Assembly: GCA_017522515.1 (NCBI GenBank)
Contig: JAFWZH010000279.1
Span: forward strand, 1-9,397
Direction of reading: 5' to 3'
Source of the DNA: Clostridia bacterium
GTDB lineage: Bacteria; Bacillota_A; Clostridia; UBA1212; UBA1255
DNA: 9,397 bases
The notes under the pieces are model-generated. The model did no database searches and was not told where the DNA came from. It saw only the letters and a program-made list of their open reading frames with translations. Position numbers and translations under genes: made by a program. Position 1 is the first letter of the stretch; each line of letters starts with the position of its first letter. Positions 994 to 9,270 of the stretch are shown one piece after another.

Positions 994-3672
994 TTGGTTC
1001 AAGATGTAAAACAATTGAATCCTGGAGCTTCTATTGGTGTTGCAGTGCGTGAATTTCCAACAAGCACAGGTCCTGTGGATTATGCGTTATTTGTAGACGG
1101 TAAGCCTGTTGGAGTTGTTGAAGCTAAAAAAAGTGATGCGGCTGAAGATATTACGAGTGTTGAAAGTCAATCCGCTCGATATGCAAATAGTACATTCAAA
1201 TGGATCAAATATGAATATCGTATTCGTTTTGCGTACGAAGCAACGGATAAGCTTACTCGTTTTACTGATTATGATGATGAGAAATTCCGTTCTCGTACTG
1301 TATTTACATTTCATCGTCCTGAAACCCTTGCGGCATTACTTCATCAAAAAGATACTATACGTAACAATATGAAGCATTTTCCTGCATTTGATGAAACAGG
1401 ATTTCGCGATTGTCAGATTAAAGCAATTAAAAAGCTTGATTCTTCTCTTTCTGAGAATAAACCAAGAGCTTTAATTCAAATGGCAACAGGTGCAGGTAAA
1501 ACATTTACTGCAATCACTGCCGCATATCGTATGCTGAAATATGGAAAAATGAAGCGCATACTATTTCTGGTTGATACAAAAGGTTTAGGAGAACAGGCAG
1601 AGCGAGAGTTTCTTGCTTATATGCCCAATGATGATTCTCGGTCTTTTTCGCAGATATATGGTGTACGTCGATTAAAGAATTCATACATACCGTCAGATGT
1701 ACAGATCTGCATCAGTACAATCCAGAGAATGTACTCTATACTGAAAGATGAAGAATTAGACGAATCCACAGAAGAAACATCTATGAATGAGTATGTTACA
1801 GCAGAGAGTAAGGTCCCTAAAGAGGTTGTATATAACGAAAAATATCCGCCGGAATTCTTTGATTGCATCATTGTAGATGAATGTCATCGTTCAATTTATA
1901 ATGTCTGGAATCAAGTGTTGGAATACTTTGATTCTTTCATTATTGGTTTGACTGCAACACCTGACAAGCGGACGTTTGCTTATTTCAACGAAAATATCGT
2001 CAGTGAATATTCCAGAGAGCAGGCAATTATCGACGGAGTTAATGTTGGTGAGGATATTTTTCTTATTGAAACCGATGTCAGCAAAAATGGTGCACACATC
2101 ATGAAACAGCTGATTGAATCACGAAATCGCATGTCAAGAGTTAAACGTTGGAAGCAGCTCGACGAAGACGTAGACTACAAACCAACACAGCTTGACAGGG
2201 ATATCGTCAATCCAAGTCAAATAAGAACTGTTATCCGAACATTTAAGAAGAATTTATACACGTCACTTTTCCCTCATAGAAAAGAAGTACCGAAAACATT
2301 AATATTTGCCAAAACAGATAGTCATGCCGATGACATTATCCAGATTGTCCGTGAAGAATTCGGTGAGGGAAATGCCTTCTGCAAGAAAATTACATACTCT
2401 GCTGAAAAACCTGAAAGTACCCTTGCGGAATTCAGGAACAGTTATAATCCACGAATTGCTGTTACAGTTGATATGATTGCCACAGGTACAGATGTAAAAC
2501 CGATTGAATGTCTGATATTTATGCGTGATGTTCGCAGTAGGAATTATTTTGAACAGATGAAAGGCAGAGGCACACGCACACTTAACAAAGACGATCTGCA
2601 AAAAGTTACACCGTCAGCATCAGAAAACAAAGACCACTTTGTTATTGTCGACGCTGTGGGCGTTACTAAATCCAAGAAAACTGAAACAAGAACGCTTGAA
2701 CGCAAGCCTACAGTATCCATGAAAGAGCTTATGTTGAATGTAGCTCTTGGTGCAAAGGATGAAGATACTCTTACATCACTTGCGAATCGTCTTGTTCGCC
2801 TTAATAGTCAAATGACACAATCTGAACGCAAGACTTTTGAAAAGGAAGTCGGAACATCCGCAGGAAAACTTGCCGAAAATCTGCTGAATGTATTTGATGA
2901 AGATGTTGTAACTGCAAAAGCAATGCAAGAATTTCAGACAGATAATCCCAATGAAGAACAGCACAAGTCAGCTGCAAAAATGCTTGCTGATGAAGCCTGC
3001 AAGCCATTTTATAAGCCTGATATCCGGGATTTTATTGAAAGCATCCGCCGCAGTCATGAGCAGATTATCGACAATATAAACCTCGATTCTGTGCTGTTTG
3101 CAGGTTTTGATAAAGAACAGGAAAAGAATGTTGACAGGGTTTTGAATACATTCCACGACTTCATTGAGGAAAACAAAAACGAAATTATCGCTCTGCGGAT
3201 TATCTATAACGAAAGCTACAAAAATCGTCCTATGGCGATTGAAGAGTTGAAAAAGCTTTATGAGAAGCTGAAAAGCAAAGGCATTACAATTGAACGTCTT
3301 TGGGATTGTTATGCTATAAAAATGCCCAATAAGGTTAAACGTGGCACAATGGCACAGCTGTCAGACCTTATTTCAATAATTCGCTTTGAAATGGGTTATG
3401 CTGATAACCTGCAGCCGTTTGCGGATAAGGTCAATTATAACTTCATGCAGTGGACGCTCCGCAGAAATGCTGGTGCTGTGCATTTTACGGAAGAACAAAT
3501 GGAATGGCTGCGACTGATTAAGGAACATATCATTGTTTCCCTGAGTATTGAACCCTCCGACCTCGACCTTAACCCCTTTGATCATAAGGGCGGTCTTGGA
3601 CGATTTTATGAGGTTTTCGGGGATAACTATGAAGAAATTTTAAATGAATTGAATGAGGTATTAGTAGCGTAA
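994..3672 (+). CDS. hsdR: Type I restriction enzyme R subunit (HsdR), N-terminus severed by a stop codon
   Basis: This is the DNA translocase and endonuclease subunit of a type I restriction-modification complex. The longest uninterrupted frame starts at a TTG (994) with no good RBS. The true start is probably ATG 934, but TAA at 958 intervenes, which would cost 20 residues. Numbering from 994: the nuclease motif has D29 and EAK (43-45); Q-motif glutamine at 141; Walker A MATGAGKT (163-170); DECH box at 295-298; GLTATP from 318; motif VI QMKGRGTR (521-528). The C-terminal third looks like the EcoEI-type R-subunit tail. At 892 residues (912 positions from 934) it has near-normal length, with no further stops. 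It is first in a five-gene operon, and the next gene begins 11 bases after its TAA. A reduced amount of protein could come from re-initiation after the 8-codon fragment. Otherwise restriction is lost. Family assignment is very secure, but functional status is uncertain. Confidence 0.93.
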   Translation: MVQDVKQLNPGASIGVAVREFPTSTGPVDYALFVDGKPVGVVEAKKSDAAEDITSVESQSARYANSTFKWIKYEYRIRFAYEATDKLTRFTDYDDEKFRSRTVFTFHRPETLAALLHQKDTIRNNMKHFPAFDETGFRDCQIKAIKKLDSSLSENKPRALIQMATGAGKTFTAITAAYRMLKYGKMKRILFLVDTKGLGEQAEREFLAYMPNDDSRSFSQIYGVRRLKNSYIPSDVQICISTIQRMYSILKDEELDESTEETSMNEYVTAESKVPKEVVYNEKYPPEFFDCIIVDECHRSIYNVWNQVLEYFDSFIIGLTATPDKRTFAYFNENIVSEYSREQAIIDGVNVGEDIFLIETDVSKNGAHIMKQLIESRNRMSRVKRWKQLDEDVDYKPTQLDRDIVNPSQIRTVIRTFKKNLYTSLFPHRKEVPKTLIFAKTDSHADDIIQIVREEFGEGNAFCKKITYSAEKPESTLAEFRNSYNPRIAVTVDMIATGTDVKPIECLIFMRDVRSRNYFEQMKGRGTRTLNKDDLQKVTPSASENKDHFVIVDAVGVTKSKKTETRTLERKPTVSMKELMLNVALGAKDEDTLTSLANRLVRLNSQMTQSERKTFEKEVGTSAGKLAENLLNVFDEDVVTAKAMQEFQTDNPNEEQHKSAAKMLADEACKPFYKPDIRDFIESIRRSHEQIIDNINLDSVLFAGFDKEQEKNVDRVLNTFHDFIEENKNEIIALRIIYNESYKNRPMAIEELKKLYEKLKSKGITIERLWDCYAIKMPNKVKRGTMAQLSDLISIIRFEMGYADNLQPFADKVNYNFMQWTLRRNAGAVHFTEEQMEWLRLIKEHIIVSLSIEPSDLDLNPFDHKGGLGRFYEVFGDNYEEILNELNEVLVA

Positions 3673-3682
3673 AGGAGAAAAT

Positions 3683-4045
3683 ATGAGCTTTTATGAAGGA
3701 ATAAAAGACGCTATCGGATTAGCACAAAAAGCTGATAATATTGAATTATATAAACAGCTTCTCGATTTGGGTGCACAGGCTTTAGAGTTGCAGGCTGAAA
3801 TTGCAAGACTTACGGCTGAAAATGAGGAATTAAGAAAAGTAAAAGATATTGAAAGCGATATAGAATATTACGTTGATGCTTTTGTTACAAGAAAATCCGA
3901 TGAAAAGCCGATAAAGTATTGTGCAGCTTGTTGGGTAGATAAGAAAAAGCTAGTTCCGCTTCAAGATATGGAATGGGAAAACTATGATTGCCCACTGTGT
4001 AAAACTCGGGTAATTGATATGAGAACGTGGGAACATAGAAAATAA
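3683..4045 (+). CDS. Small coiled-coil/zinc-ribbon protein of unknown function
   Basis: The protein is 120 residues, with AAGGAG (3672-3677) 5 bases before the ATG and overlapping the hsdR stop. Residues about 15-55 are a charged, leucine-rich helix (QALELQAEIARLTAENEEL) likely to form a coiled coil. The C-terminal half has two CxxC pairs (C80/C83 and C103/C106), spaced like a zinc ribbon, and the first pair sits in YCAACW. No signal peptide or membrane segment is seen. I recall small proteins of this general layout near mobile or phage-derived genes, but no function is known to me. Its position between hsdR and hsdS suggests co-expression with the restriction system. Possible roles include DNA binding or a protein bridge, both purely inferred. 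Confidence 0.8.
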   Translation: MSFYEGIKDAIGLAQKADNIELYKQLLDLGAQALELQAEIARLTAENEELRKVKDIESDIEYYVDAFVTRKSDEKPIKYCAACWVDKKKLVPLQDMEWENYDCPLCKTRVIDMRTWEHRK

Positions 4046-4062: not shown

Positions 4063-5175
4063 TTGAGTTGGACTAAATACGAACTTGGGGATTTGCTTTC
4101 ATACGAACAACCGACACCATATATAGTAGAATCAACTGAATACAATGATAACTATAAAACACCTGTGCTTACAGCAGGAAAAACTTTCATTCTTGGTTAT
4201 ACAAATGAGGAAACAGGTGTTTATGATGCTTTGCCGGTTATCATCTTTGACGATTTTACAACCGCAAGTCGTTATGTAAATTTCAAGTTTAAGGTAAAAT
4301 CTTCTGCAATGAAGATACTGACACCAAATACAAAGTTGGTATTACCGAAGTATATCTATTACAGAATGCAGATTATTCCATTTGACAGTAGTACACATAA
4401 ACGATACTGGATTCAGAAATATTCTAAAATCAAAGTGTCTATCCCCCCACTCCCCGAACAAGAACGCATTGTCGCCCGTATTGAGGAGCTGTTCTCCGAA
4501 CTGGATAAGGCTATAGAAACGCTGAAAAAGACAAAAGCACAGCTTGCAGTTTATCGGCAGGCGGTACTGAAAGAGGCGTTTGGAAAAGTTGAAAATACAA
4601 TCTGGTTAGGAGAAATAATTGATTCTCGTCTTGGTAAAATGCTTGATAAAACTAAAAATGTTGGTACACCAAGACAATATCTGCGAAATACCAATGTACG
4701 TTGGTTCTCATTTGATTTATCTGATTTACTAGAAATGAAGATTGAAGATGATGAAATAGAAAAATACTCGGTAGACAAAGGCGACCTTGTAATATGTGAA
4801 GGTGGGGAACCTGGACGATGTGCTGTTTGGGAAAAAGACTATACATTTTTTTATCAAAAAGCATTACATAGAGTGCGTTTTACAGACGGTTCTAACCCCA
4901 AATTTTATATGTACTATCTCTGGTTTTCAGCTCAAACAGGTCAATTAGCAAAATATTTTACTGGTACAGGTATAAAACATCTGACAGGTCAATCACTAAA
5001 TAAAGTTACTGTTCCTACGGCACTCAAAAGTTTTCAAGATAAAATAGTATCAGAAATCGAATCCCGTCTTTCCGTCTGCGACAGCATAGAGAAAACCATT
5101 GACACCGCATTGCAGGAATCCGAGGCTATGCGGCAGAGTATTTTGAAAAAAGCGTTTGAGGGAGGGTTTATATGA
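4063..5175 (+). CDS. hsdS: Type I restriction-modification specificity subunit (HsdS)
   Basis: This subunit recognises the bipartite DNA target for both methylation and restriction, and pairs with HsdM. The 370 residues have the complete classical layout. Target-recognition domain 1 covers about 3-126 (YEQPTPYIV, then FDDFTT). A central conserved helical spacer follows at 127-175 (PPLPEQERIVARIEELF to LKEAFGK). Target-recognition domain 2 covers about 176-314 (CEGGEPGR, YFTGTGIKHLTG). A distal spacer at 315-370 ends in ILKKAFEGGFI. Both spacers finish with a similar I/VLK-AF motif, the usual internal pseudo-repeat. The TTG start has a strong RBS. Its TGA overlaps the next ATG (ATGA), so translation is likely coupled. 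The target sequence cannot be predicted here. No second hsdS, recombinase or inverted hsdS copy is in the window, so there is no visible shuffling system. Confidence 0.93.
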   Translation: MSWTKYELGDLLSYEQPTPYIVESTEYNDNYKTPVLTAGKTFILGYTNEETGVYDALPVIIFDDFTTASRYVNFKFKVKSSAMKILTPNTKLVLPKYIYYRMQIIPFDSSTHKRYWIQKYSKIKVSIPPLPEQERIVARIEELFSELDKAIETLKKTKAQLAVYRQAVLKEAFGKVENTIWLGEIIDSRLGKMLDKTKNVGTPRQYLRNTNVRWFSFDLSDLLEMKIEDDEIEKYSVDKGDLVICEGGEPGRCAVWEKDYTFFYQKALHRVRFTDGSNPKFYMYYLWFSAQTGQLAKYFTGTGIKHLTGQSLNKVTVPTALKSFQDKIVSEIESRLSVCDSIEKTIDTALQESEAMRQSILKKAFEGGFI

Positions 5176-5882
5176 GAGAATATAAAGAATGTTACATAGC
5201 AGTGCTGGATCTTTTAGGATTTAAGGCTGCACTTAAAAAATATGATTGTAATACAATAGCAACCATTTTTGATGAAATTAATGAAGAATATACAATATCA
5301 TATAATGAAACGAGAGAGCCAATAGTAAATAAAGAAGATATACATATAAAGGTAATGTCTGATTCAGTTTGTATTTATATAGAATCACGCACAGAAAATG
5401 CTTTGCCTGCATTAATTGCAACTTGTGATTATTTCCAAATTCGTATGCTACGTTTAAAAGAACCCATGCTTTCAAGAGGTGCAATTGTAAAAGGAAAATT
5501 ATATCATAATAATGATGTCCTGTTTGGCGAAGGATTTGTAAAAGCATATTATATGCAAGAAAATGAAGCTATATATCCACGTGTTATTATAGAAAAAAAT
5601 ATTATTGAAGGATTTAAAACTAATAATAACGCTGATCAAAGATATATCGATTTACTATTGACAAAAGATTTTGACGGCTACTATTTTTCAGATTATTTGT
5701 CATTATTTTATTGCTTAAATCATGAACAGGAATCGTGGAAAAATTTTATTAAATACGTAATCGCAAAAAAAGAAAACGAAGAAAATGGGCGAGCAAGAGC
5801 TAAATATTCATATATTACTGAAAGTTTGCCACGAATAAAGAAAAGATTTTTTCAATACATCGAGGAGAATAACAATGTCTGA
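5172..5882 (+). CDS. Uncharacterised protein with nucleotide-cyclase-like motifs, embedded between hsdS and hsdM
   Basis: The product is 236 residues, soluble, with no signal peptide or membrane segment. Seen: YIAVLDLLGF (D13), IKVMSDSVCIY (D64), RGAIVKG (102-108) and FGEGFVKAYYMQE (118-130), then YPRVII. The spacing and order resemble class III adenylate/guanylate cyclase domains: a first metal aspartate in an F-x-D-I-x-G-F motif, a second about 45-50 residues later, then a glycine-bearing strand and a G-D-x-V-N-x-A-x-R segment. In the last segment the catalytic Asn and Arg positions appear to be Lys124 and Met128, so cyclase activity is doubtful. It may be a diverged or non-cyclase palm-fold protein. 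I recall similar hypothetical proteins in bacteria but no established function. The gene overlaps hsdS by 4 bases (ATGA, with GGAGGG upstream) and hsdM by 8 bases, so it is co-translated with the modification genes. It is about 25-27% GC in sampled rows, far below hsdM. Confidence 0.85.
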   Translation: MREYKECYIAVLDLLGFKAALKKYDCNTIATIFDEINEEYTISYNETREPIVNKEDIHIKVMSDSVCIYIESRTENALPALIATCDYFQIRMLRLKEPMLSRGAIVKGKLYHNNDVLFGEGFVKAYYMQENEAIYPRVIIEKNIIEGFKTNNNADQRYIDLLLTKDFDGYYFSDYLSLFYCLNHEQESWKNFIKYVIAKKENEENGRARAKYSYITESLPRIKKRFFQYIEENNNV

Positions 5883-7350
5883 ACAAACCACAACAATAAT
5901 ATCAAAAGTCTGGGGAATGTGCGGCCCTCTCCGTGATGACGGCGTTTCCTACGGCGATTATCTTGAACAGCTTACATATCTGATATTTCTGAAAATGTCA
6001 GACGAGTACGCTAAGCCGCCATATAAGCGAAAAACAGGAATTCCCGAGGGCTACAGCTGGAGTGATATGAACACTCTGAAAGGTGCTGAACTGGAAACTA
6101 AGTATAAAGAAATACTTGAAAATCTTTCCGAACAGGGTGGAATTCTCAGTAAAATCTTTAAAGGTGCAACCAATAAAATCAGCAATGCCGCAATTCTCAG
6201 CCGCATTGTTGCCATGATTGATAAGGAGAAATGGGTTTCTATGTCCTCTGATGTCAAGGGTGAGATTTACGAAGGCTTGCTGCAGAAAAACGCTGAGGAT
6301 ATCAAAAGCGGTGCCGGACAGTACTTCACTCCCCGTCCGCTGATTAAAACAATGGTGAAATGCATTCGTCCTGAACCAATGAAAACTATTGTTGATCCTT
6401 GCTGTGGAAGCGGTGGTTTTCTGCTTGCGGCACAGGATTTCATTGCAAATACATACACTCTTGACCGTGAGCAAAAAGAGTTTATGAAAGCGGAAGCATT
6501 CCGTGGAAATGAACTTGTTGCAACTACATTCAAGCTTTGTCTGATGAATCTGTATTTGCATAATATCGGCGATATTTACGGAAATATTCCTGTTACTCTC
6601 GGAGATGCTCTACTTATGGATTCGGGAGAACGTTATGATTATGTGCTGACAAATCCGCCGTTTGGCAAGAAATCTTCAATCACTTTTACGAATGAAGAAG
6701 GCGAACAAGAAGATGAGGATTTAGTATACAACCGCCAGGATTTCTGGACAACCAGTTCCAACAAGCAACTGAATTTTGTACAGCATATCAATACAATTTT
6801 GAAAGCTACAGGAAAAGCAGCTGTTGTTGTACCTGATAATGTTCTTTTTGAGGGCGGAGCAGGCGAAATTGTACGTCAAAAGCTGCTGGAAACAACAGAT
6901 TTACATACGATTCTTCGCTTGCCTACAGGTATTTTCTACAAACCAGGCGTTAAGGCGAATGTTATTTTCTTTGATAAGCGCCCTGCAAGCCCTGATATTC
7001 AGACAAAAGAGGTATGGGTATATGATTTCCGAACAAACGTACATTTTACTTTAAAGAAAAATCCAATGACAGAAGCGGATTTGGTTGATTTCATTAAGTG
7101 CTATCATCCGGATAATCGTTACAACCGCTATGAAACATGGTCAGAAGAAACCCCTGAGGGACGCTTCCGTCGCTTCTCCATTGATGAAATTATGCAGAGA
7201 GATAAGCTGAGTCTGGATATTTTCTGGCTCAAGGACAAGTCACTTGCAGATTTAGAACATCTGCCGCCTGCTGATGAACTTGCAGATGATATTATCGAGA
7301 ATCTGCAAAGTGCGTTAGAGAGTTTTAAAGAATTAAAATTAAAATTATAA
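5875..7350 (+). CDS. hsdM: Type I restriction-modification DNA methyltransferase subunit (HsdM)
   Basis: This subunit transfers a methyl group from S-adenosylmethionine to N6 of adenine in the target chosen by HsdS. Its 491 residues are a normal full length. The N-terminal helical HsdM domain (about 10-140) is followed by GAGQYFTPRPLI, the SAM-binding motif DPCCGSGGF (174-182) and the catalytic NPPF (from N260), as expected for gamma-class N6-adenine methyltransferases. All key residues are present. GAGGAG at 5862-5867 lies 7 bases before the ATG. The start lies inside the end of the preceding gene, which suggests translational coupling. HsdM is the last gene of the operon, and a hairpin terminator follows 10 bases after the stop. 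The R-x-S-x-M order is unusual, since M normally precedes S. With the hsdR lesion upstream, this gene and hsdS could still act as a stand-alone methyltransferase. Confidence 0.96.
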   Translation: MSEQTTTIISKVWGMCGPLRDDGVSYGDYLEQLTYLIFLKMSDEYAKPPYKRKTGIPEGYSWSDMNTLKGAELETKYKEILENLSEQGGILSKIFKGATNKISNAAILSRIVAMIDKEKWVSMSSDVKGEIYEGLLQKNAEDIKSGAGQYFTPRPLIKTMVKCIRPEPMKTIVDPCCGSGGFLLAAQDFIANTYTLDREQKEFMKAEAFRGNELVATTFKLCLMNLYLHNIGDIYGNIPVTLGDALLMDSGERYDYVLTNPPFGKKSSITFTNEEGEQEDEDLVYNRQDFWTTSSNKQLNFVQHINTILKATGKAAVVVPDNVLFEGGAGEIVRQKLLETTDLHTILRLPTGIFYKPGVKANVIFFDKRPASPDIQTKEVWVYDFRTNVHFTLKKNPMTEADLVDFIKCYHPDNRYNRYETWSEETPEGRFRRFSIDEIMQRDKLSLDIFWLKDKSLADLEHLPPADELADDIIENLQSALESFKELKLKL

Positions 7351-7360
7351 CACTAAGATC

Positions 7361-7382
7361 AAGCAGTCCTTCGGGACTGCTT
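7361..7382 (+). terminator. Terminator of the hsd operon (UUCG tetraloop)
   Basis: AAGCAGTCC (7361-7369) pairs perfectly with GGACTGCTT (7374-7382) around a TTCG loop closed by C-G, the very stable cUUCGg tetraloop. The following bases are T-rich (TTACATTTTC). It separates the hsd operon from the two-component genes. Confidence 0.85.
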
Positions 7383-7431
7383 ACATTTTCTATCAACAGA
7401 TTTTTGTTTTGCAATAGTAGTTCAATACACC

Positions 7432-7460
7432 TTGCATCCTGTGTCTGTTTATGTTATAAT
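7432..7460 (+). promoter_or_regulatory. Sigma-A type promoter of the two-component operon
   Basis: TTGCAT (7432-7437), a 17-bp spacer and TATAAT (7455-7460), with TGT just before as an extended -10. The elements are the same as at the hsd promoter. The response-regulator ATG lies 26 bases after the -10, leaving a very short leader with AGAGAGGTGAG as the ribosome-binding region. No clear LytTR-type direct repeats are seen upstream. Confidence 0.78.
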
Positions 7461-7486
7461 AAAAAAGACGAAAGAGAGGTGAGCTG

Positions 7487-8215
7487 ATGAACATTGCAAT
7501 TTGTGACGATGATGAAAATTTTTGCCAAACATTGTGTAAAATGGTACAAGTATATCTGCAAAATGCAAATCTTGACGCACAGCTACATATTTTTGCATCC
7601 GGAGAAGAGCTGTGTCAAGCAATGCACCATAAACAAATCGCACTTGTATTTCTTGATATTGAACTGACCGGAATGAACGGTGTGGATGTGGGACAGATAT
7701 TGCGGCATTCACAAAATTCCGATGTGCAAATCGTCTATGTATCTGCAAAAGAAGAATATGCCATGCAGCTTTTTCAGAATCGTCCTTTTGATTTTCTGGT
7801 CAAACCCATTTCGCAAAACCGATTACGTATGCTCATGGACGAATACTTCCGCATTTTTCCACAGGAGGAAAGGTATTTTTCTTACACCTCAGATAGAAAA
7901 AAAGCACAGATTGATACCTGTGAAATCCTCTATTTTGAAAGTGTACGCAAGCAACTTCGAATGATGACAATAAACGGCACAATACTGATTTACAGTAAGC
8001 TTTCAGATATTTTGGAACTGCGATTCAGTCACCGCTTTCTGCGGATTCACCAATCTTTCCTCGTAAATACCCAACACATCGCACAATTTCGGTATCAGGA
8101 AGTCATACTGACGGACGGTACAACGCTGCCTATCAGCCGCTCTTATCAGGATTCCGTCCGTGATTATATGATGCAGCACAGTCAGGAACGGGCAAAGAGG
8201 AGGAATGGGATATGA
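7487..8215 (+). CDS. LytTR-family response regulator (AgrA-like)
   Basis: This is a cytoplasmic transcription factor switched by phosphorylation from the adjacent kinase. Its 242 residues comprise a receiver domain (about 1-120) with the acidic pocket D7-D9, phospho-acceptor D57 in VFLDIEL, switch residue S86 and conserved K106 in LVKPI, all present. A LytTR DNA-binding domain follows at about 127-230 (YFSYTSDRKKAQIDTCEILYFES, then FLRIHQSFLVN and LPISRSY). LytTR regulators typically bind direct repeats upstream of virulence, bacteriocin, competence or cell-envelope genes. The target here is not visible. The start is supported by a purine-rich RBS and by the typical MNIAICDDD N-terminus. The stop overlaps the kinase start (ATGA), so the two are co-translated. 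Confidence 0.94.
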   Translation: MNIAICDDDENFCQTLCKMVQVYLQNANLDAQLHIFASGEELCQAMHHKQIALVFLDIELTGMNGVDVGQILRHSQNSDVQIVYVSAKEEYAMQLFQNRPFDFLVKPISQNRLRMLMDEYFRIFPQEERYFSYTSDRKKAQIDTCEILYFESVRKQLRMMTINGTILIYSKLSDILELRFSHRFLRIHQSFLVNTQHIAQFRYQEVILTDGTTLPISRSYQDSVRDYMMQHSQERAKRRNGI

Positions 8216-9270
8216 ACGCAGTACACCTCACGGAATTTCTGGTATTTTCTATTGCACTTTTATTGTATATTTTTGCAAATTTCCGTCTGACACGGCTTTT
8301 GAATGGAGAATCCCCAAAAGGTCAACTCAGGGAAGCTATTGCCTATATCAGTTGTATCGTCTTGAGTGAAGTAATTTTATTATACCAACTTTGCCATGCT
8401 CAATATCTACTGTGGGTGCTTATTTCTGTTTTTGTATGTCATTTTCCGATTCTATTTCTGTATGAACCCTCGCTGAGAAAGAATGCCTTAATGCAGCTGA
8501 AACTATTTGGCGGCGACTGTCTATACATTGCAGTATGGATTTTAGCAGAGGGTTCTTTTGATAATACAGATCATGAACTGCTATTTCTGACTCTGTGCGG
8601 TGCCAAACTCGTGCTGACACTTTTGGCAGAATCCTATTACCGCCGTCGTGAAAAGGAACGGATTTCACATCAAATGGAACTATACCGTCACCAAATGAAA
8701 CTAATGGAGCAGTCACAGGCACAGATTCGATTTCTGCGGCACGATATGAAAAATCATTTGCTGCATATACAACATCTTCTAATGGAACATGATGATGAAC
8801 GGCTCAAAAACTATTTACAGGAAACTGCTGCACACCTGTCCGTTTCAAATGAATTTGTCCGTTCAGGCAATCGTGATATTGACAGTCTGCTCAATTATAA
8901 ACTGCTGACAGCAAAGCAGCTTGGGACAGAGATTAAAACAGATATTGCAATTCCGTCAGATTTGAACATATCATCATTTGATGTAAATGTTATTCTCGGT
9001 AATCTTCTGGATAATGCCATTGAAGCTCTGCAAAACTGCAAGGAACGGCGGCTGTTGATCTCATTGCGTTATGATGCAGGAATTCTTTCTATCTTACTGC
9101 AAAACACCTGTATACAGAAGCCGCCTGCATTCTCTGTCAAGGGGCAGGGTCATGGATTAGGGCTGCATAGTGTACGTCATGCTTTGGAGCATTATCACGG
9201 TCAACTGAAAACTGACTATCAGGAGCATATTTTCACCGTTTCTGCCTTACTATATTTAGGGCATCTCTAA
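8212..9270 (+). CDS. Membrane sensor histidine kinase, AgrC/GHKL type
   Basis: This is a membrane sensor that phosphorylates the preceding response regulator. The 352 residues have an N-terminal half of about five hydrophobic segments (roughly 5-24, 42-61, 64-86, 97-114 and 122-140) with no extracytoplasmic domain of note, then a helical linker (145-172). The H-box FLRHDMKNHLL carries H177. The N-box NLLDNAIEA begins at N264, and the G-box GQGHGLGL is at 311-318. This matches the HPK10 group, whose best-known members sense peptide pheromones (AgrC, ComD). No agrB/agrD-like peptide or processing gene is in the window, so the signal is unknown. AGGAGG at 8198-8203 precedes the ATG by 8 bases. 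All catalytic motifs are intact. Confidence 0.93.
   Translation: MNAVHLTEFLVFSIALLLYIFANFRLTRLLNGESPKGQLREAIAYISCIVLSEVILLYQLCHAQYLLWVLISVFVCHFPILFLYEPSLRKNALMQLKLFGGDCLYIAVWILAEGSFDNTDHELLFLTLCGAKLVLTLLAESYYRRREKERISHQMELYRHQMKLMEQSQAQIRFLRHDMKNHLLHIQHLLMEHDDERLKNYLQETAAHLSVSNEFVRSGNRDIDSLLNYKLLTAKQLGTEIKTDIAIPSDLNISSFDVNVILGNLLDNAIEALQNCKERRLLISLRYDAGILSILLQNTCIQKPPAFSVKGQGHGLGLHSVRHALEHYHGQLKTDYQEHIFTVSALLYLGHL

Follow-up and report, generated by a model that had tools for sequence, protein, structure and literature searches.

The question raised by positions 1 to 9,397 of contig JAFWZH010000279.1 of the Clostridia bacterium assembly GCA_017522515.1, hereafter the window, is what a gene for a protein of 236 amino acids (aa) does inside a type I restriction operon, where it is located between hsdS and hsdM. 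A sequence-only reading had described this gene as nucleotide-cyclase-like and had proposed that it is a control or back-up module of the modification complex. The analysis leans slightly towards another answer, namely that the type I restriction operon carries it as an accessory gene for defence, one that can be exchanged for others. The evidence for it comprises the predicted fold, conservation, the position of the slot, exchange between systems and purifying selection.

The open reading frame (ORF), the motifs quoted in the sequence-only reading, the overlaps of four and eight bases and the neighbours hsdS and hsdM were all found in the sequence and by Pfam matches. A protein search yielded 68 family members at E ≤ 1e-3, the window's own counted in, and the ratio of nonsynonymous to synonymous substitution (dN/dS) against the relative at locus L001 was about 0.14 (dN 0.19, dS 1.43), a rough value since dS is high. 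Accordingly, the homologues and this ratio indicate that the ORF is not a chance ORF and is under purifying selection. No model of Pfam, NCBIfam or PADLOC matched the window protein at E ≤ 1, while its residues 3–185 resemble phrog_23933 in sequence (E = 1e-21), a PHROG itself without assigned function. The gene was not found in phage records by tblastn; among viral contigs, nothing was detected with alignment A1 (51 of the 68 proteins, window's included) and one locus with alignment A2; in the viral structure library, the sole match below 0.001 was to a protein of a giant virus that bears the name response regulator.

The AlphaFold2 (AF2) model of the protein has a predicted local distance difference test score (pLDDT) of 92, and structure comparison assigns about residues 1–176 to the class III cyclase fold, Foldseek listing PaPycC (6YII) at rank 46. 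Helix H206–217 at the C-terminus lies outside the region covered by most cyclase matches. The structure check suggested in the sequence-only reading was thus carried out, and model and structure search agree in predicting the class III cyclase fold. Support for the fold from sequence comparison alone is weak. A search of PDB sequences with the window protein gave no match, and with A1 a single unrelated one (E = 1.7). The wider alignment A3 (53 members, with L005, a near-duplicate of L006, and the truncated L011 omitted and five plasmid relatives added) gave 25 matches at E ≤ 10, none below 0.014, of which the top seven are cyclases; dynamin-like proteins rank after them, from E = 0.088. Alignment of A1 to one cyclase with hhalign covered the first motif alone (probability 15%). 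The window protein has no PF00211 match above the gathering score, nor any at E ≤ 1; at E ≤ 0.1 this domain model picks up three of the 53 members, the strongest at 0.019.

The motifs LDLLGF with D13, SDS with D64, RGAIVKG, FGEGFVKAYYMQE and PRVII are present in the window protein. With the catalytic domain of class III cyclases (PF00211; Rv1264, Rv1625c, Ma1120) it shares the fold over about residues 1–174, the order of motifs, both metal-binding aspartates (Asp), the R-x-G/A-I-x-x-G strand and the G...A..xE helix. It differs in the replaced asparagine (Asn) and arginine (Arg) of the catalytic pair, in V116 at the substrate-Asp position, which is mostly hydrophobic across members, and in extra C-terminal helices with K211. 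Profile alignment to solved cyclases places V123 at the Asn and Y127 at the Arg position, which bears out the replacement suspected earlier; Asn was found in two and Arg in one of the 53 members, and both together in none. The sole member with Arg at position 127, that of L091, provided the second model. R102, R137, K211 and D166-x-D168 form the family's own signature (Table 1).

According to PMC4215837, Asn and Arg stabilise the transition state in most class III cyclases, and Ma1120, with alanine in place of Asn, is still active. The Asn is therefore not absolute, and the near-invariant R137 or the invariant K211 could stand in for Arg, which together with the fold and with both metal Asps in every aligned member is compatible with a true nucleotide cyclase of a Pycsar-like signalling defence, its effector being unlinked. 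In this family, however, the Arg is replaced too. Pyrimidine cyclases PycC of Pycsar systems (PaPycC 6YII) are alike in the class III fold, the two metal Asps and the defence setting (PMC11224242), but the family differs in that no effector occurs among the neighbours examined. No partner effector is visible in the window, as already stated in the sequence-only reading; no cyclic-nucleotide-binding domain was detected in 37 member-locus proteins given to Pfam, many neighbours being unscanned or matchless, and a crude hydropathy count revealed no membrane segment in same-strand neighbours within 150 bases at the 18 close loci defined below. Three PADLOC families were weakly matched by the 53 members, none of them named Pycsar, the presence of a Pycsar model in the library being unconfirmed. 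The 37 proteins include no effector, and at nine distant loci the family gene stands more than 150 bases from any other gene on its strand, which makes a Pycsar-type gene pair less likely. A true cyclase with an unlinked effector is considered improbable.

Because the fold and the two-metal site are kept, the Asn/Arg pair is lost and the family has its own invariant basic residues, the product is most likely an enzyme that depends on two metals and works on a nucleotide with changed chemistry, and less likely a protein that binds without catalysis. A more specific version is put forward tentatively and is doubtful: a novel class of enzymes built on the fold of class III cyclases, in which the metals are kept, the Asn/Arg pair is replaced by R137 and K211, and a nucleotide would be made or destroyed as a back-up, the gene having been recruited separately by type I, MmeI-type and GmrSD-type systems.

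Close relatives are represented by 18 loci, window included, below 1e-45 with the A1 profile. Eleven of them are type I loci. In eight (the window, L003–L007, L009 and L014) the gene is located between hsdS and hsdM on the same strand; at L003 a 202-aa gene follows it in the slot, at L005–L007 an Mrr-like gene precedes it (L006 by Pfam match, others by clustering), and at L014 hsdR is reduced to a short piece. Other type I orders are R-M-S-gene (L001), gene-M-S-x-R (L002) and M-S-gene-R (L013). Restriction neighbours of other types were found at L008, where the gene follows an MmeI-type enzyme, and at L010 and L012, where it stands after and before a GmrSD gene, respectively. MmeI-type enzymes belong to type IIG/IIL. 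In total, 14/18 close loci adjoin a restriction locus, so that the profile search and tabulation proposed earlier place most close homologues near restriction genes. An hsdS gene lies within 6 kilobases (kb) of nine of the 16 close copies (16 genomes), against an expectation of 0.13 from 32 hsdS loci in 46.8 megabases, a test which treats loci as independent with L005 and L006 near-identical. Twelve of the 18 overlap a same-strand neighbour or lie ≤15 bases from it, overlaps depending on the chosen start codon.

Sister operons were located by HsdM alone (E ≤ 1e-150), which was found in 15 of 786 genomes (8/392 and 7/394). The slot between hsdS and hsdM was readable in 11 genomes. The count leaves out L119 and L120 (other gene order), L121 (no hsdS) and L136 (cut), and also two further loci, namely L129, an HsdM locus of a viral contig in which no gene is labelled hsdS, and L130 (24% identical). 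The slot is empty in L115, contains the family gene and the 202-aa gene in L003, and holds other genes in the remaining nine: 159 aa in L114, 161 aa with a faint HEPN match in L116, 204 aa in L117, DUF5677 in L118, DUF2971 (PDC-S31) in L131, 273 aa in L132, 444 and 236 aa in L133, Mrr-like in L134 and HSDR_N_2-like in L135, whose HsdM is 68% identical. Kinship among slot genes was detected by phmmer solely for the Mrr-like ones, with those of L006/L007; this comparison misses distant kin, the DUF2971 proteins of L131 and L084 being unmatched to each other. These DUF2971 genes lie within two different hsd operons (L131, 3740–4807; L084, 3023–4003), and that of L131 matches the PADLOC candidate PDC-S31. 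In L118 a DUF4062/TIR-like gene (6929–7915) occupies the hsdR–hsdS gap, and the operon family therefore seems to have two cargo slots.

The window gene is 71% identical to that of L001, where HsdM is 26% identical, and 35–48% identical to those of L004–L007, L009 and L014, where HsdM is 81–83% identical. The gene has thus diverged independently of its operon, and since slot contents vary and gene and HsdM identities are incongruent, it looks like cargo and not like a conserved Hsd subunit. The gene is optional and exchangeable in the type I operon.

These data bear on a second explanation, by which a degenerate cyclase-fold protein serves the type I enzyme as a partner, regulatory or structural, tuning HsdM, HsdS or HsdR through a bound nucleotide. 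The tight overlaps with hsdS and hsdM, the hsdS–hsdM position in 8/18 close loci and the loss of the Asn/Arg pair, compatible with a binding-only role, all agree with it. However, the slot is without the family gene in nine operons with HsdM 79–83% identical, divergence of the gene tracks neither HsdM nor HsdR, and the gene also stands beside non-homologous type I systems, MmeI-type and GmrSD enzymes. Such a partner is therefore unlikely, and the last observation leaves the idea of the sequence-only reading, a control module dedicated to this modification complex, unsupported. As for the fixed co-expression it had deduced, the overlaps hold, but a fixed module is not supported, for in sister operons the slot holds other genes or none.

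Distant relatives show a different setting. Genes of hsd were identified by clustering in four of 31 distant loci (L075, L077, L084 and L091). At L075 (7926–10173), two longer family copies lie in tandem between hsdM and hsdS. The superfamily was matched in at least 23/392 and at least 19/394 genomes of two orders, both centre genomes counted, which are lower bounds with at most seven candidates scored per genome. Distant relatives were also present in 37 PLSDB plasmid records; in the 10 stretches examined they adjoin AbiEii, HipA, transfer, metal-resistance or unnamed genes. In L096 and L105 (around 6046–7816), plasmid relatives begin 13 bases past an AbiEii/AbiGii nucleotidyltransferase toxin gene.

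Such neighbourhoods suit a third explanation, a self-standing passenger of defence islands with no functional tie to restriction that gathers where restriction genes are. It would account for members beside HipA (L081), Fic-family (L092, assigned because it clusters with L075's Fic gene) and AbiEii genes (L096, L105), and for the nine distant loci lacking a close same-strand neighbour. It fits poorly with the close loci, since 12/18 overlap or nearly touch a neighbour and the 14/18 that adjoin restriction loci exceed what general island clustering suggests, and it is given a low probability; the embedded-defence and passenger readings nevertheless grade into one another.

Several observations weigh against an embedded accessory defence gene. 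None of the family members has a known activity or anti-phage phenotype. The family gene was found in one of the 11 operons detected through HsdM and is thus minority cargo, and for several slot genes domain matches are weak or absent, which leaves their designation as defence genes partly inferred. Four of the 18 close relatives have no identified restriction gene alongside: L011 is truncated, L044 lies by a PIN gene on a short contig, L081 by the HipA gene, and L082 has a helicase/PLD gene about 1 kb off on the opposite strand. The restriction association was counted on related Clostridia and includes the near-duplicates L005/L006. Since 27/31 distant loci show no hsd gene in the fetched stretch, some stretches being short, and an annotated hsd gene is present in none of the 10 plasmid stretches (the PLSDB gene table being incomplete), the wider superfamily is not restriction-specific.

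With these points considered, an embedded accessory defence gene would operate as follows. The gene would be co-translated with hsdS and hsdM from the cargo slot between them, as the overlaps suggest, and translational coupling from hsdS is probable from the ATGA overlap with the purine-rich GGGAGGG directly 5' of it. Its product, a putative metal-dependent enzyme of the class III cyclase fold, would act alone on a nucleotide, not as an Hsd subunit. Upon phage infection this nucleotide may be consumed, modified or cyclised, providing a second, nucleotide-level layer of defence beside restriction.

Table 1. Genes, overlaps and active-site codons of the locus (positions in the window)
Feature	Position	Strand	Remarks
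Cyclase-fold accessory gene (subject)	5172..5882	+	236 aa, ATG start; AF2 pLDDT 92
hsdS, specificity subunit	4063..5175	+	PF01420, E = 6e-18
hsdM, modification subunit	5875..7350	+	PF02384, E = 6e-69; PF12161
hsdR open frame, 892 aa from TTG 994	994..3672	+	PF04851, PF08463
120-aa coiled-coil/Cys-pair protein (two Cys pairs) in hsdR–hsdS gap	3683..4045	+	
hsdS/236-aa gene overlap, 4 bases, ATGA	5172..5175	+	sequence
236-aa gene/hsdM overlap, 8 bases; hsdM ATG at 5875	5875..5882	+	sequence
D13 codon	5208..5210	+	on first metal Asp, aligned to D of 'ADIvGF'; 53/53 A3, 51/51 A1
D64 codon	5361..5363	+	on second metal Asp, aligned to 'GDS'/'Ds' of cyclases; 53/53 A3, 51/51 A1
R102 codon (RGxIxxG)	5475..5477	+	near-invariant: 52/53, one Lys
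V123..Y127, with V and Y in place of the transition-state Asn and Arg of cyclases	5538..5552	+	profile alignment to solved cyclases
R137 codon (PRIIxD)	5580..5582	+	near-invariant: 51/53
D166-x-D168 (DxDG), conserved acidic pair	5667..5675	+	Asp at each position in 45/53
K211 codon, C-terminal helices	5802..5804	+	invariant: 53/53 A3

The genes of the operon follow one another on a single strand in the order hsdR, 120-aa gene, hsdS, 236-aa gene and hsdM. In hsdR, an upstream in-frame ATG at 934, the likely start, is followed by TAA at 958–960 as the ninth codon, and the frame reopens at TTG 994; this genome may therefore have weak or inactive restriction, unless the TAA base is an assembly error. 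A homologue of the 120-aa Cys-pair protein abuts the relative of the 236-aa gene in L002, and another lies in the hsdR–hsdS gap in L007, as in the window. A fixed pair of these two genes was rejected, three further homologues (L137–L139; 373 genomes) having no family gene within about 1.5 kb; the viral-contig scan revealed no homologue of the 120-aa protein. Upstream of the operon, positions 1–702 encode the C-terminal part of McrC (PF10117); McrBC is a type IV system. Downstream of hsdM, a LytTR response regulator and a GHKL histidine kinase are encoded at 7487–9270.

Defence genes embedded in restriction operons are already known. A 2024 preprint by Payne et al. reportedly treats genes embedded in defence systems, the same general notion of cargo within defence operons. 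According to PMC11411939 and PMC12255303, tgvAB of V. cholerae suffices to protect E. coli from Tevenvirinae, although protection by the complete cluster of five genes is stronger, and DarTG2 sits in an anti-phage island within a type I system. The proposal of a second defence layer is based on such cases. As described there, TgvAB (GmrSD-like) and DarTG2 are likewise encoded by defence genes within an hsd operon, but they belong to other protein families and are placed between hsdS and hsdR, whereas the slot here lies between hsdS and hsdM. Judged by titles and the beginnings of abstracts, with preprints and most subscription journals outside the search, no paper on a cyclase-fold gene within an hsd operon was found, which is weak evidence.

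The cargo described here brings a signalling-type nucleotide-enzyme fold, with its own conserved active-site pattern, into restriction loci. If the enzyme is active, DNA restriction and immunity at the nucleotide level would be coupled through one cargo gene. The hsdS–hsdM slot, variably filled in sister operons, is a place to seek new small defence genes.
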